Origin: Bacillus sp. BA3
Lineage (GTDB): Bacteria; Bacillota; Bacilli; Bacillales; DSM-1321
NCBI GenBank assembly: GCA_002835675.1
Contig: PIZR01000004.1
Coordinates: 87,381 to 151,380 of the forward strand
Reading direction: 5' to 3'
DNA length: 64,000 nt
Of the stretch, positions 6,926 through 46,415 are shown piece after piece. Numbering within the stretch: position 1 is the first letter of the stretch; every line of letters begins with the position of its first letter. The notes beneath the pieces are model-generated. The model was not told the DNA's origin and did not search any database. It saw nothing but the letters and a program-made list of their open reading frames with translations. The translations under genes and the position numbers were made by a program.

Positions 6926-7330
6926 ATGATGCAAGGGAACCCTACACCATATGAATTAATTGGAGAAGGGCAATTACACAAGTTAATTGATGTGTTTTAC
7001 TCCAACGTTAGTCAACACCCGGATCTGCAGCCAATATTCCCTGACGATTTAACAGAAACGGTCCGTAAACAAAAACAATTTATGACTCAATATCTAGGCG
7101 GTCCCTCTTTATATACAGAAGAGCATGGCCATCCTATGTTGCGGGCTCGACATATACCTTTCGAAATTACACCAGAACGTGCGAAAGCATGGCTCTCATG
7201 CATGTATCAAGCTATGGACGAAGTTGGCCTTGAGGGTGAGATTAGGGAGTTTTTCTATCACCGCCTCTATTTGACGGCGCAGCATATGATCAATACATCC
7301 GGAACTGACGGGAAAGGAGAAGGCAGTTGA
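6926..7330 (+). CDS. yjbI: Truncated haemoglobin, group II (YjbI)
   Basis: This is a 134-residue 2-over-2 globin of the group II (TrHbO) type, which binds haem and reacts with O2, NO or peroxide. Seen are PTPYELIGEGQLHKLIDVFYSNV, the CD-region PDDLTETVRKQKQFMTQYLGG, the proximal-histidine segment PMLRARHIPFEI and the G-helix Trp in AKAWLSCMYQAM. Its stop codon overlaps the TTG start of spxH, so the two are co-translated, as in B. subtilis yjbI-yjbH. The globin and the adaptor that destroys Spx therefore share a message, which fits a nitrosative/oxidative stress role. Confidence 0.92.
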   Translation: MMQGNPTPYELIGEGQLHKLIDVFYSNVSQHPDLQPIFPDDLTETVRKQKQFMTQYLGGPSLYTEEHGHPMLRARHIPFEITPERAKAWLSCMYQAMDEVGLEGEIREFFYHRLYLTAQHMINTSGTDGKGEGS

Positions 7331-8220
7331 GCGCACAAAAACCAGTTTTCAATATTTCCGATTGGATCAAGACGCAGCATTGCTATGATATAGGAAAAAA
7401 GCCAATTGAAATTTATGTTTTTGTTGATCCGCTTTGTCCCGAATGCTGGGGCTTAGAACCAATTATTAGGAAATTACAGATAGAATATGGCCAATTGTTC
7501 AGTTTACGCCATGTTTTAAGCGGTAAAATCGATTCTCTTAATATGGGGAAAAATAAAAATTATGAAAACATTGCTCAAGTTTGGGAAAAGACAGCCAGCC
7601 GCTCGGGAATGTCCTGCGACGGAAGCCTTTGGTCTGAAAACCCAATCTCTTCTCCATATACAGCTTCCATCGCAATAAAAGCAGCGGAATTGCAGGGCCG
7701 TAAATTGGCCATTCGCTTTTTAAGGCAGCTTCAAGAATATGTATTCATAGGAAAAAAGGATATATCCAATATCGAAGTCTTGACCGAATGTGCCAAGATG
7801 GTTGGACTGGATGTGGAAGAATTCCTTTATGACATCAATTCCTCCAGTGCAGCCAAAGGCTTTCAATGTGACATGAAAATCACGAGCGAAATGGAAGTGA
7901 CTGAAATACCTTCCCTTGTCTTTTTCAATCAAAATATTGAAGAAGAGGGAATAAAAGTTTCAGGTGTCTATTCTTACGAGGTATATGTTCAAATTTTAGA
8001 AGATATGCTGAATGGTCTTCCAGCCCCTGCAACCCCCCCCTCTCTCGAAGAGTTTCTAAGCTGTTTCAAACTAGTGGCCACGAAGGAAATTGAAACCGTT
8101 TATAATATGAATAAGAATAATGTCGAGTTGGAAATGAAAAAGCTTGTTTTAAAACAGGTTGCAGAGAAGATACCTGCTAAATACGGAACGTTTTGGAGAT
8201 ATACAAAGAAGCAGTCATGA
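7327..8220 (+). CDS. spxH: ClpXP adaptor protein SpxH (YjbH), DsbA-like
   Basis: SpxH binds the stress regulator Spx and speeds its degradation by ClpXP; oxidative or disulfide stress inactivates the adaptor. The 297-residue protein has a thioredoxin/DsbA-like fold with CPEC at residues 37-40 inside VFVDPLCPECWGLEP, the inserted helical region, and a cis-Pro-like strand VTEIPSLVFF. The start is TTG at 7327, overlapping the stop of the globin gene. Its target SpxA is encoded in this window (15246-15641), and MecA, a second ClpC adaptor, lies between them. The 3' end forms part of a hairpin terminator. Confidence 0.93.
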   Translation: MSAQKPVFNISDWIKTQHCYDIGKKPIEIYVFVDPLCPECWGLEPIIRKLQIEYGQLFSLRHVLSGKIDSLNMGKNKNYENIAQVWEKTASRSGMSCDGSLWSENPISSPYTASIAIKAAELQGRKLAIRFLRQLQEYVFIGKKDISNIEVLTECAKMVGLDVEEFLYDINSSSAAKGFQCDMKITSEMEVTEIPSLVFFNQNIEEEGIKVSGVYSYEVYVQILEDMLNGLPAPATPPSLEEFLSCFKLVATKEIETVYNMNKNNVELEMKKLVLKQVAEKIPAKYGTFWRYTKKQS

Positions 8221-8243
8221 ATTTGACTGCTTCTTTGTTATTT
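8205..8243 (+). terminator. Terminator overlapping the spxH stop codon
   Basis: AAAGAAGCAGTCA pairs with TGACTGCTTCTTT across a short loop containing the TGA stop, followed by a T-rich stretch. Confidence 0.8.
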
Positions 8244-8249
8244 TAAAGG

Positions 8250-8360
8250 AAAAACCATGCAATCAAAAGATTGCATGGCTTTTTATAAGAAAATAAGGGG
8301 ATGGGAGAAATTTTTCACGATCAAACAAAGGGGTATAAGTTTGTTTGTGATTCACTTCAC
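8250..8360 (-). ncRNA. roxS: Small regulatory RNA RoxS/RsaE, copy 1 (next to spxH)
   Basis: The minus strand carries the conserved body of the RoxS (B. subtilis) / RsaE (Staphylococcus) sRNA as I know it. Its parts are the loop ATACCCCTTTGTTTG, the spacer GTGAAAAATTTCTCCCATCCCC and a final intrinsic terminator CCATGCAATC-TTTT-GATTGCATGG with five T. The two C-rich motifs (CCCCTTTG and TCTCCCATCCCC) pair with Shine-Dalgarno sequences of target mRNAs in central metabolism and redox balance. CAAACAAA/TTTGTTTG arms can form a 5' hairpin with the first C-rich motif in its loop. The position downstream of spxH (yjbH) agrees with the B. subtilis locus. A Rex-like operator and ResD-like repeats sit at its promoter. 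Ends are estimated from promoter and terminator. Confidence 0.9.
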
Positions 8361-8362
8361 AA
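8345..8362 (-). promoter_or_regulatory. Rex-like operator at the RoxS copy 1 start site
   Basis: On the minus strand TTGTGAAGTGAATCACAA matches the Rex consensus TTGTGAA-N4-TTCACAA at 13 of 14 fixed positions. It overlaps the expected transcription start, a repressing position. Rex senses NADH/NAD and is known to control roxS in B. subtilis. Confidence 0.7.
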
Positions 8363-8367
8363 TAAAT

Positions 8368-8397
8368 AATATAACAGATAACCCATTTGCGTTTCAA
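8368..8397 (-). promoter_or_regulatory. Promoter of RoxS copy 1
   Basis: On the minus strand TTGAAA (8392-8397) and TATATT (8368-8373) are 18 bp apart. The start site would be near 8360, giving an RNA of about 110 nt. Confidence 0.6.
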
Positions 8398-8410
8398 CTA
8401 TATGTGTAAC

Positions 8411-8430
8411 TTTTCACAAATTGTTCACAA
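8411..8430 (-). promoter_or_regulatory. ResD-like direct repeats upstream of RoxS copy 1
   Basis: On the minus strand TTGTGAACAATTTGTGAAAA contains two direct TTGTGAA copies 11 bp apart. This is the type of site bound by the ResD/SrrA response regulators that activate roxS/rsaE under NO or low oxygen. It lies about 13 bp upstream of the -35 box, a normal activator position. Confidence 0.6.
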
Positions 8431-8651
8431 TATATATTTTGGTCATTTTTTATTATCCATTCCGATATATAGCTAAATATAAGCCCTTTTCATTTAAAGC
8501 TATAAGAGTTTTAGATATCCTCTTAATATCTGATTTAAAATGGAATAAATCTATTTGTGAAACAAATCACATTATCTTTTTTGTATTGCCTAAGCCTTTT
8601 TTAACTTCCGTTAAAGCCGATCATTTAATTCTTTTTACTTTTCATGCAAAT

Positions 8652-8774
8652 GAAAAACCCCGGCAAACCGCTAAATTTGCTGGGGTTTTCATCTATTTAT
8701 ACGAATAAGGGGATGGGAGAAATTTCACGACGAACAAACAAAGGGGTATATGTTTGGGATGTGATAACTTCTAT
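8652..8774 (-). ncRNA. Small regulatory RNA RoxS/RsaE, copy 2 (tandem paralogue)
   Basis: This is a second complete copy of the RoxS/RsaE body on the minus strand, about 400 bp upstream of copy 1. The loop ATACCCCTTTGTTTG and the distal motif ATTTCTCCCATCCCCTTAT are unchanged, whereas the sequence between them is shorter by two T and differs at a few bases. It has its own terminator (ACCCCAGCAAA / TTTGCCGGGGT with a T run, different in sequence from that of copy 1) and its own promoter (TATAGT at 8781-8786). The leader has no Rex-like site. Keeping both C-rich motifs and an independent terminator argues for a working gene and not a decayed duplicate. Confidence 0.87.
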
Positions 8775-8780
8775 ATCTGT

Positions 8781-8810
8781 ACTATAGCAGATTACATACC
8801 TTAATTGCAA
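8781..8810 (-). promoter_or_regulatory. Promoter of RoxS copy 2
   Basis: On the minus strand TTGCAA (8805-8810) and TATAGT (8781-8786) are 18 bp apart, placing the start near 8774. Confidence 0.55.
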
Positions 8811-8816
8811 GAACTT

Positions 8817-8832
8817 TGTGCGCAACTTCACA
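8817..8832. promoter_or_regulatory. Fnr/ResD-like site between RoxS copy 2 and the small membrane protein
   Basis: The minus strand reads TGTGAAGTTGCGCACA, which fits the Bacillus Fnr box TGTGA-N6-TCACA at 9 of 10 fixed positions and also holds a ResD-like TGTGAA half site. Its centre is about 50 bp upstream of the estimated RoxS copy 2 start. It could also act on the rightward promoter at 8836-8865. Confidence 0.45.
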
Positions 8833-8835
8833 TTA

Positions 8836-8865
8836 TTGTCATATTCTTAGAATACTGCTTATTCT
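8836..8865 (+). promoter_or_regulatory. Candidate promoter of the 54-residue membrane protein gene
   Basis: TTGTCA (8836-8841) and TATTCT (8860-8865) are spaced by 18 bp on the + strand, upstream of the ribosome binding site at 8916-8923. Confidence 0.4.
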
Positions 8866-9148: not shown

Positions 9149-10966
9149 CTATTTATTCAAAAGCTCTTCCAACTCATTTAATTTTTCTTCGAATACATTC
9201 ATGGCTTCTTGTACAGGCTCGGCTTTTGTCATATCGACACCAGCCTTTTTGAGTACTTCAATCGGATAATCGGAACTTCCTGACTTCAAGAACTCCAGAT
9301 ACCTTTTGACAGCAGGCTCTCCTTCTTCAAGGATTTGCTTGCTCAATGCTGTTGCTGCACTGATTCCAGTCGCATATTGATAAACATAGTAATTATAGTA
9401 GAAGTGTGGAATACGCGCCCATTCCAAACCGATTTCCTCATCGATGGTCACGTTCTCGCCAAAGTATTTCTTGTTCAGCTCATAATATTCCTTAGTAAGC
9501 ATATCCGCTGTTAACGCTTCCCCATTTTGAGCCTTTAAATGTATGGTATGTTCAAACTCTGCAAACATCGTTTGCCGGAACAATGTGCCACGGAAACCTT
9601 CCAGGTAATGATTCAATAAATAAATGCGTTTCTTTTCATCTTCGATTGAATTCAGTAAATAATCATTCAACAGGTTTTCATTACAAGTCGATGCAACTTC
9701 CGCTACAAATATTGAATAATTTCCGTATGGATATGGCTGATATTTACGTGTATAGTAGCTATGGACCGAATGTCCAAACTCATGAACGAGCGTGAATAAG
9801 TTATTAACGTTATTTTGCCAGTTCATTAAAATATAAGGATTCGTCCCGTATGTACCAGAAGAATAGGCACCGCTTCGTTTCCCTTTGTTTTCATGCACAT
9901 CGACCCACCGGTTTTCAAACCCCTCTTTCAAAACATTCAAATAATCCTCCCCAAGTGGAGCAAGTCCTTTAAGGACATAATCCTTGGCCTCGTCATAAGT
10001 CACTTCCATCTTCACTTCTTTAACAAGAGGAGTGAATAGATCATACATATGAAGTTCATCTAATTGCAGTACTTTTTTACGTAAGTCAAGATAACGGTGA
10101 AGTAAAGGCAAATTGTCATTGACCGTTTTAACGAGATTATCGTATACAGTCTCCGGAATGTTGTTATTACTTAATGCCGCTTGGCGTGCTGAATCATATT
10201 TTCGAACAGTGGCATTGAAGTTATGGTTTTTCACCTCACCAGACAGGGTTGAAGCAAATGTATTGCGGAACTCCCCATACTTGCTGTATACCCCCTTAAA
10301 TGCCTCCTCACGTACACGGCGATCTTCACTCTCAAGAAAACTGATATATCTTCCGTGAGTTATTTCCACTTCATCTCCCTTTTCATCCTTGATGGTCGGG
10401 AATTTCAAATCGGCATTGTTAAGCATACCGAAAGTATTGCCCGATGCATCGAGTACTTCTGATGCCTGCGCCAATAATTCTTCCTGCTCTGCAGATAAGA
10501 TATGTGGTCTCTGAAGATTGATTTCCTCTAAAGAATGCTTGTACAATTTCAATTCTTCTTTTTCTTCCAAAAACCCTTCCACTTTGCTTTCGTCAATACT
10601 CAATAGTTCAGGAACCATAAATGAAAACGCAGCCGCTGCCTGGGCATATAAAGCTTTTGCCCGATCCTCCATCCCTTGATAAAAAGGATTGGTTGTATCT
10701 TGATCATTGCGCATATGTGAATAAGAATAAACTTTCCCTAGCTTCTCGAATACTTCATCTTGGAGTTGAAGCGCCGCGAATAATTTCTCTGCGCTTTCAC
10801 CCAACGTGCCTTTATGTGCCTCCGCCTTCTTGAGGTCTTCCTTTACCGCTTTGAAGGCAGCTTCCCAATCTTCCTCGGTTGCGAAGATATCTTCCAGTCT
10901 CCAAGTATCTTCAGGAGCTATTTCACTTCTTGAGGGTAATGTATTCGTTTTTGTTTCCTGTGCCAT
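9149..10966 (-). CDS. pepF: Oligoendopeptidase F
   Basis: This is a cytoplasmic zinc metallopeptidase of family M3B that cuts short peptides. The 605-residue protein has the N-terminal helical domain and, near residue 390, the zinc motif HEFGH inside TLVHEFGHSVHSYYT, with the downstream Glu ligand in VAEVASTCNE. Length is normal. The ATG at 10966 (MAQETKTN) follows AGGAGGAA; an upstream in-frame ATG at 11035 would add 23 residues without a ribosome binding site. B. subtilis PepF (YjbG) lies at the same place beside coiA and has been linked to turnover of signalling peptides. Confidence 0.95.
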   Translation of the reverse strand: MAQETKTNTLPSRSEIAPEDTWRLEDIFATEEDWEAAFKAVKEDLKKAEAHKGTLGESAEKLFAALQLQDEVFEKLGKVYSYSHMRNDQDTTNPFYQGMEDRAKALYAQAAAAFSFMVPELLSIDESKVEGFLEEKEELKLYKHSLEEINLQRPHILSAEQEELLAQASEVLDASGNTFGMLNNADLKFPTIKDEKGDEVEITHGRYISFLESEDRRVREEAFKGVYSKYGEFRNTFASTLSGEVKNHNFNATVRKYDSARQAALSNNNIPETVYDNLVKTVNDNLPLLHRYLDLRKKVLQLDELHMYDLFTPLVKEVKMEVTYDEAKDYVLKGLAPLGEDYLNVLKEGFENRWVDVHENKGKRSGAYSSGTYGTNPYILMNWQNNVNNLFTLVHEFGHSVHSYYTRKYQPYPYGNYSIFVAEVASTCNENLLNDYLLNSIEDEKKRIYLLNHYLEGFRGTLFRQTMFAEFEHTIHLKAQNGEALTADMLTKEYYELNKKYFGENVTIDEEIGLEWARIPHFYYNYYVYQYATGISAATALSKQILEEGEPAVKRYLEFLKSGSSDYPIEVLKKAGVDMTKAEPVQEAMNVFEEKLNELEELLNK

Positions 10967-11153
10967 AAAAAAATTCCTCCTCATTCTATAGAAACTTGCC
11001 ATTGGGCTTACTCGTAAACCGGATAGACGCCGCAATGCTTCATTCGGCGTTCATTCTTTTTAAAGCTTTTAATTCCCAGTTCTTATTACTATTTCTCCAT
11101 TAACAAAAATAATCCTGCCATTTCATCTGAATTCAAGATAAATAGAGATGTTA

Positions 11154-45588: not shown

Positions 45589-45725
45589 TAAAACATAAAT
45601 TTTACATGAAAAATTATCCAACGAAAATCCTAGAATTATCCAAACTTGTTGACTACTAGGGTTTTTTCCGTTTAAATCAAAGGTAGTAATTGAGTAATGA
45701 CGCTATCTGAAAGGTGGTCATATGC

Positions 45726-46415
45726 ATGAATGAATTATCGTTATCTAATCGGATGCATGCAATTTTAGATAATAAACAACAAGTTAAACATATGGAAAAA
45801 GGGCGCTACCTTTTTCAGGAGAGCACCCCAGCAAGTGATTTGTATTACATTATTAAAGGGAAAGTGGAAGTGAGCAAGGTTGTTCCCGACGGTCGGGAAT
45901 TGACTATACGCATTAGTTCGGAGAATGATTTGGTTGGGGAAACCGTCTTATTTTCTCAAAATCCTAAATATATGATGAATGCAAAAATGATGGAAGATGG
46001 AACTGTTGCGGTTATCTCCAAAGAAGCATTAGAAGATAAAATCGCCTCCGATAGCCATCTTGCAGTCGAGATGATGACATGGTTATCCGCTCAAAACCGT
46101 AAAAACCAGGCTAAATTCCGCGATATGCTCCTGCACGGTAAGAAAGGTGCATTTTACTCCACCCTCATCCGTTTATCAAATAGCTATGGCACTGAAGCAG
46201 AAGACGGTAAAGTTATCAACCTTCCCTTTACAAACCAAGAACTCGCCAATTTTTGCGGCACATCCCGCGAGGTGGTCAATCGAATGCTTGCTCAATTAAG
46301 GAAAAACAATGTCATCTCCATTAAAAAGGGACGCATTACGATTCTTGACTTTGACTATTTGAAACAGGAAATCGACTGTGAAAACTGTCCAATAGAAATC
46401 TGTACCATCGATTGA
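45726..46415 (+). CDS. fnr: Anaerobic regulator Fnr (Bacillus type, C-terminal Fe-S cysteines)
   Basis: This Crp/Fnr-family activator of anaerobic genes has 229 residues: cyclic-nucleotide-binding-like fold (about 10-125), dimer helix, and a C-terminal winged helix with the recognition segment FTNQELANFCGTSREVVNRMLAQLRKNNV (about 172-200). The C terminus DCENCPIEICTID has Cys218, Cys221 and Cys226, the C-x2-C-x4-C spacing of the three cluster ligands of B. subtilis Fnr. That placement is unlike E. coli FNR, whose ligands are N-terminal. The ATG at 45726 follows AAAGGTGG. It is convergent with moaA. Confidence 0.92.
   Translation: MNELSLSNRMHAILDNKQQVKHMEKGRYLFQESTPASDLYYIIKGKVEVSKVVPDGRELTIRISSENDLVGETVLFSQNPKYMMNAKMMEDGTVAVISKEALEDKIASDSHLAVEMMTWLSAQNRKNQAKFRDMLLHGKKGAFYSTLIRLSNSYGTEAEDGKVINLPFTNQELANFCGTSREVVNRMLAQLRKNNVISIKKGRITILDFDYLKQEIDCENCPIEICTID

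Follow-up and report, generated by a model that had tools for sequence, protein, structure and literature searches.

Why should a genome keep two genes for a small RNA of which related bacteria generally carry one? In the soil Bacillus relative studied here, the minus strand between spxH and pepF bears two sRNA genes of the RoxS/RsaE type. The window, i.e., the whole stretch of 64,000 nucleotides that was analysed, belongs to a genome of 5.59 Mb, and the original prediction had seen the RoxS/RsaE body twice at this spxH locus and had proposed a covariance-model search with RF01820 as a check. That search (cmscan) bears out both the identity and the duplication, since each copy aligns with model positions 1-112. 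The downstream, spxH-proximal copy D (8250-8360, minus strand, about 111 nt by the model bounds) scores 96.8 bits, and the upstream, pepF-proximal copy U (8654-8773, minus strand, about 120 nt by the model bounds) scores 59.1 bits with an E-value of 5.4e-9. As the gathering score of RF01820 is 79 bits, default Rfam annotation reports D alone and skips U, although U matches the model over its full length. Copy U is a RoxS paralogue by descent and not a member certified by Rfam. The third-best match in the genome reaches 26.1 bits at an E-value of 0.085, which excludes a chance origin of the D and U matches. The neighbourhood is that of RsaE/RoxS as well, with spxH (7327-8220, plus strand; PF13743, 252.5 bits for 7327-8217) on one side, a gene which we take to be spxH/yjbH from the gene order, and pepF (9149-11035, minus strand; product TIGR00181, 729 bits) on the other.

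A scan with the spxH product yields 22 named loci at 56-99% identity, and the 11 loci with at least 95% identity come from nine Peribacillus and two Bacillus species. Within Peribacillus, 28 of 36 genomes, this one included, carry the tandem pair and eight have a single copy; pairs are found in genomes of P. simplex, P. frigoritolerans, P. muralis, P. butanolivorans, and P. asahii, and one copy in P. glennii and P. cavernae. In 25 of the 28 tandem genomes, one copy or both score below the Rfam cut-off. Seven other genomes of the family give one RF01820 match each. In a survey of the order, with stricter search filters by which weak copies can be lost, 189 of 299 genomes are matched and 110 are without a match. 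The expectation that RoxS is normally a single-copy gene holds outside the genus, where 180 of the 181 matched genomes carry a single match and the remaining one (G188) has two. G188 is a member of another family; its near-alike RoxS-type copies, separated by 480 bp, form a tandem pair of their own (L112, G188:C14:85300-87500), which is devoid of the start-site dyad described below. For comparison with the pairs, 34 single-copy relatives were assembled: eight come from the genus, seven from the family, and 19 were picked from high scorers among the listed matches of 178 further genomes in the order.

Third RoxS-like copies occur in five genomes (L077-L081), 76-77 kb from the pair, and form a series from intact (82.7 bits) to eroded (34.4 bits). 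In the genome studied here the flanks of that locus are present (L161), but no RoxS match is found there up to an E-value of 10. Weak matches in G010 (34.7 bits) and G013 (32.1 bits) were considered as extra copies and are not convincing. In G013 a CATCCCCTTTGTTCGT stretch resembling the RoxS tail is followed by a terminator-like hairpin (L083 5025-5138, G013:C62), the RoxS 5' part being absent; it is possibly a chimeric sRNA or a product of chance. Listeria rli61 (RF01485, filed as cis-regulatory) aligns with D (window 8243-8361, minus strand) at 34.9 bits versus a cut-off of 50 and has in common with RoxS the 5' stem, a CCCCUU loop, and a UUCUCC stretch. It may be a RoxS homologue, and a literature search for rli61 and RoxS together retrieved no paper.

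A tree of the flanking coding sequences (G046 left out) unites 24 tandem genomes in one clade (100/97), consisting of G012, of G002 (P. asahii) with G003, and of a set of 21 close genomes that includes this one; G010, G011, G023, and G032 are located outside this clade among single-copy genomes. The 21 close genomes form the set used below, and G002, G003, G010, G011, G012, G023, and G032 are the seven remaining tandem genomes. In a tree of the copies together with 75 nt of promoter, operator columns included (G046, G053, G060, G065, and G188 left out), U of the 21 joins U of G002/G003 (95/88) and D joins D (99/99), and therefore the duplication predates the split of the 21-genome clade from G002/G003. 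In this tree U and D of G010, G011, and G023 cluster together (98/77), suggesting a separate duplication or gene conversion, and the placement of the G012 and G032 copies, which sit on long branches, is unsure. Within one genome the cores of U and D are 0.66-0.80 identical, which indicates that they have not been homogenised. As judged from these trees and identities, the pair consists of two paralogous RoxS genes derived from an old tandem duplication within Peribacillus. Titles and abstract openings among the matches listed from the open-licence PMC literature contain no report of a RoxS/RsaE gene duplication; in the available portions of PMC4409812 and PMC8216469, “duplicat” refers to a 10-nt repeat inside RoxS and to duplicate samples and not to a duplicated gene.

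Could U simply be a decaying pseudogene? Its lower covariance-model score and the erosion seen in the third copies of five genomes would agree with decay. However, mean pairwise identity over the 21 genomes amounts to 0.965 for the U core and 0.976 for the D core, to 0.900 for the U promoter and 0.855 for the D promoter, and to 0.597 for the spacer, third codon positions of the flanking genes averaging 0.797 (208 of 210 pairs). The U core is thus better conserved than third codon positions or spacer and is no relic, and with core and promoter of U both under such strong conservation, a pseudogene is very improbable.

Both copies have the C-rich loop and the distal seed characteristic of RsaE/RoxS, as originally predicted. 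The ACCCCTTTGTTTG loop is common to U and D, its motif being present in 21 of 21 U copies. The distal C-rich seed CUCCCAUCCCC of D (8293-8311, minus strand) is exact in 20 of 21 D copies, and the same 19 nt in U (8705-8723, minus strand) are exact in 15 of 21 U copies and present in all 21 by a looser pattern. The folds predicted for U and D of this genome are alike. The sucC start region is predicted to pair with the shared distal motif, its duplex energy ranking 1/40 for D and 2/40 for U against 39 control start regions which a simple rule identified within the window, with energies that ignore internal folding. Over these 39 control regions the duplex energies of U and D correlate at 0.82. 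In B. subtilis, sucCD is a known RoxS target (PMC5419742). If labour were divided in the RNA instead of at the promoter, differences at the 5' end would alter the processing of U by RNase Y or add pairing sites (an extra C run in the 5' arm) and thereby provide a different target set. The U 5' end is indeed changed, the extra C run exists in most of the 21 genomes, and RNase Y is reported to process the RoxS 5' end in B. subtilis (PMC4409812). The retention of loop and distal motif in all U copies, the latter by the looser pattern, the similar folds in this genome, and the prediction of sucC for both copies argue against this explanation, which we consider distinctly unlikely.

Each copy has a predicted promoter and terminator of its own. 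Promoter-like sites with a TG before the -10 box precede D (8368-8397, minus strand, TTGAAA-18-TATATT) and U (8781-8810, minus strand, TTGCAA-18-TATAGT), and the extended -10 pattern is found in 21 of 21 genomes for either copy; the promoter scan alone is weak evidence, with 8 sites versus 4.8 expected. Firmer is the terminator scan (4 found versus 0.4 expected), which places terminator-like hairpins with stems at 8255-8278 for D and 8654-8689 for U, both on the minus strand. Whereas the prediction of a separate promoter and terminator for each copy agrees with these sites, its assertion that the terminators are of unrelated sequence does not stand: relatives carry intermediate versions (alignment judged by eye), and therefore the two are better read as diverged homologues. 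What had been missed is the difference between the copies, which, going by the sequences compared, is one of control and not of seeds.

In S. aureus the Rex consensus is given as TTGTGAAW4TTCACAA (PMC2883068). For B. subtilis, it is described that RoxS is derepressed without Rex, that Rex binds a roxS promoter fragment in EMSA, and that a predicted Rex site lies just downstream of the roxS start (PMC5419742). The present genome encodes Rex (NF003989, 364.8 bits versus a cut-off of 177). Scoring TTGTGA-N6-TCACAA with its 12 arm positions at the start, we find a perfect dyad, a predicted Rex-type operator, over the start site of D (8345-8362); this dyad is perfect in 16 of the 21 genomes and has one mismatch in the other five. 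At the equivalent site of U (8758-8775) the operator is lost, with at least four of 12 positions mismatched in 21 of 21 genomes even if spacings of 5-7 are allowed. D thus resembles B. subtilis RoxS in having a Rex-type operator at its start, here by sequence only, and U does not. Not one of the 34 single-copy relatives has a perfect start-site dyad; one mismatch occurs in 16, two in 15, and three in 3 of them. In the 21-genome clade, then, D appears to have mostly perfected the operator that U lost. Perfect dyads are rare: this genome contains two, that of D among them, versus 0 for a backward-pattern control, and the 36 genus genomes contain 79 versus 9 in the control, 36 of the 79 being situated within the roxS regions examined. 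The other perfect dyad of this genome (L132 1501-1518; G000:C42:10553-10570) is located just before a minus-strand gene, NAD-dependent epimerase-like by eye and read in two overlapping frames, and its 18-mer is identical in at least eight other genomes of the genus.

A second operator-like dyad is found in the spacer (8555-8572), with one mismatch in this genome and 210 bp from the D operator. Among the 21 genomes it is perfect in 12, has one mismatch in eight, and is absent in one (G014), and in the 20 genomes that have it the distance to the D operator is 164-210 bp. Shuffled spacers contain such a dyad in 0.03 of 21 on average; they are the fair control for the 10 of 12 arm positions that are invariant in the 20 spacer dyads, as this invariance is partly an effect of choosing the best dyad. 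Genome-wide, dyads with up to one mismatch of 12 are at chance level (9 versus 11 in the control), as are those with up to two mismatches of 14 (40 versus 35). Hence the evidence for the spacer dyad is its conservation, and mismatched Rex-type dyads were never used as sole evidence. A two-mismatch pair near the end of contig C24 was dropped, its sequence being repeated on C11. Helical phasing of the two dyads is not claimed: over 20 genomes the mean resultant at 10.5 bp is 0.43, or 0.39 if only distinct values are counted, and among the periods scanned (9.5-12.5) 12.0 bp is the best.

The same dyads might be read by Fnr in place of Rex, which would make D oxygen-gated. In the same window a Crp/Fnr-type gene (45714-46415, plus strand) codes for a product with a C-terminal CxxCxxxxC cluster, presumably like that of Bacillus Fnr, and the B. 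subtilis Fnr box, TGTGA-N6-TCACA, is nearly the same as the Rex-type dyad. On account of this gene and this box the dyads may be Fnr sites, the spacer dyad above all; the outer T of the Rex consensus is present in just 65% of the 20 spacer dyads. The Crp/Fnr-type gene itself stands between argC-like and moaA-like genes (by eye), and an NCBIfam search with its product gave nothing above cut-off. In favour of Rex, a location over the start fits a repressor, 16 of 21 D sites retain both outer letters (T and A) of the Rex consensus, and in B. subtilis Rex binds the roxS promoter fragment, with its predicted site in the same place (PMC5419742). Fnr as the reader of these dyads seems unlikely.

Farther upstream both copies have candidate elements of a ResD-type region. 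For B. subtilis, activation of roxS by ResD and a proposed site near -65 have been reported (PMC4409812). D has a TTGTGAA/ACACA element at about -59 (8402-8419), which is also an imperfect Rex dyad (best 1-3 mismatches in the 21 genomes), and U has a TGTGAA/GCACAA element at about -60 (8816-8833). The latter is an imperfect Rex dyad too, with two mismatches in 20 of 21 genomes and one mismatch in one, so that a residual effect of Rex on U is possible. All 21 U copies and 20 of the 21 D copies contain GA(A)CAA...TGTGAA, a pattern that was defined with the sequences already in view. Upstream of U only there is a ATTCTAAGAAT element (8843-8853), found as ATTCTAAGA in 20 of 21 U copies and in none of the 21 D copies; a looser form exists in just five of the 34 single-copy relatives, and we do not claim that the element is ancestral.

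In the seven other tandem genomes, the start-site dyad of U is free of mismatches in G010, G011, and G023; G012 and G032 have one mismatch each, G002 and G003 three each. For D the dyad is intact in G002, G010, G011, and G023, departs by one position in G003 and by two in G012, and is degenerate in G032 (five mismatches). In G002 and G003 the CCCC of the D loop is gone. Lineages thus differ in how, and whether, the pair is divided. The confinement of the split to part of the tandem genomes, together with the imperfect D dyad in five of the 21, slightly reduces our confidence in a promoter split, and the eight of 36 genus genomes that manage with one copy also speak against it. Might two copies merely raise total RoxS, the promoter differences being without functional meaning? 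The seeds kept in both copies, the correlated duplex energies, and the perfect dyad in both copies of G010, G011, and G023 are compatible with dosage. In the 21-genome clade, however, the promoters show fixed divergence, with the U operator lost, the D operator perfect or one off, and the spacer dyad present in 20 of 21, and the cores are not homogenised. The original prediction had left dosage and division of labour both open; for the 21-genome clade the operator data favour division, at the promoter, and we give dosage little weight.

The reading we prefer, at a probability of about two in three, is subfunctionalisation of the promoter: a D copy gated by Rex and NADH and a U copy without a Rex block at its start would share the same seeds. 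The computations show that the copies are homologous, old, and both under constraint, that they share their seeds, and where operator sequences are present or lost; we infer transcription, binding of Rex and ResD, repression of targets, and the split as the reason for keeping both copies. U and D would each give rise to a base-pairing sRNA of about 110-120 nt, and both RNAs would use the same C-rich motifs to occlude the ribosome binding sites of mRNAs for the TCA cycle and redox functions, sucC being the predicted example. Both copies would be kept because their control is split. D would be repressed by Rex at its start when NADH is low and would fire as NADH rises, and the spacer dyad may strengthen or tune this control. 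With its start-site operator gone and the upstream TGTGAA-type element kept, U would provide RoxS activity in response to ResD-type (oxygen/NO) or other upstream inputs. A bolder version, which we regard as doubtful, envisages a two-channel redox readout in which the ancestral promoter was divided by complementary operator loss and improvement into an NADH-gated D and an NADH-blind U for oxygen/NO. In this version two Rex operators separated by 164-210 bp would act together on D, for example through a DNA loop or a spread roadblock, and its switch would be sharper than that of a single-copy roxS.

With regard to fold, C-rich seeds, the spxH neighbour, and possibly a ResD-type promoter region, the pair is similar to B. 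subtilis RoxS and S. aureus RsaE (RF01820). B. subtilis RoxS has been described as managing the NAD+/NADH ratio (PMC10433868), and one promoter joins the signals of Rex (NADH) and ResD (NO/oxygen) (PMC5419742, PMC4409812). Whereas RoxS/RsaE is treated as one gene in the parts of these papers available to us, there are two here, with the start-site operator on one of them and an extra dyad in the spacer. Sibling sRNAs with promoters that respond to different signals have been described for the CsrB copies of Vibrio tasmaniensis (PMC6262261) and for OmrA/OmrB and RsmY/RsmZ (PMC4211561). In contrast to these Gram-negative examples, the present case concerns a redox sRNA of a Gram-positive bacterium, in which the loss of the operator can be traced against single-copy relatives. 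LhrC of Listeria, a different sRNA, is also multicopy in a Firmicute, and it is induced by cell-envelope stress through LisRK (PMC4132741).

For annotation, the case means that a second copy can be conserved and yet escape a curated Rfam cut-off. The genus offers a series for studying how sRNA duplicates are retained, comprising the single copy, the pair with both operators, the split pair, and the eroding copy. If it is true that Peribacillus has distributed the Rex and ResD inputs over two sRNAs that share their seeds, either input could be studied in isolation.
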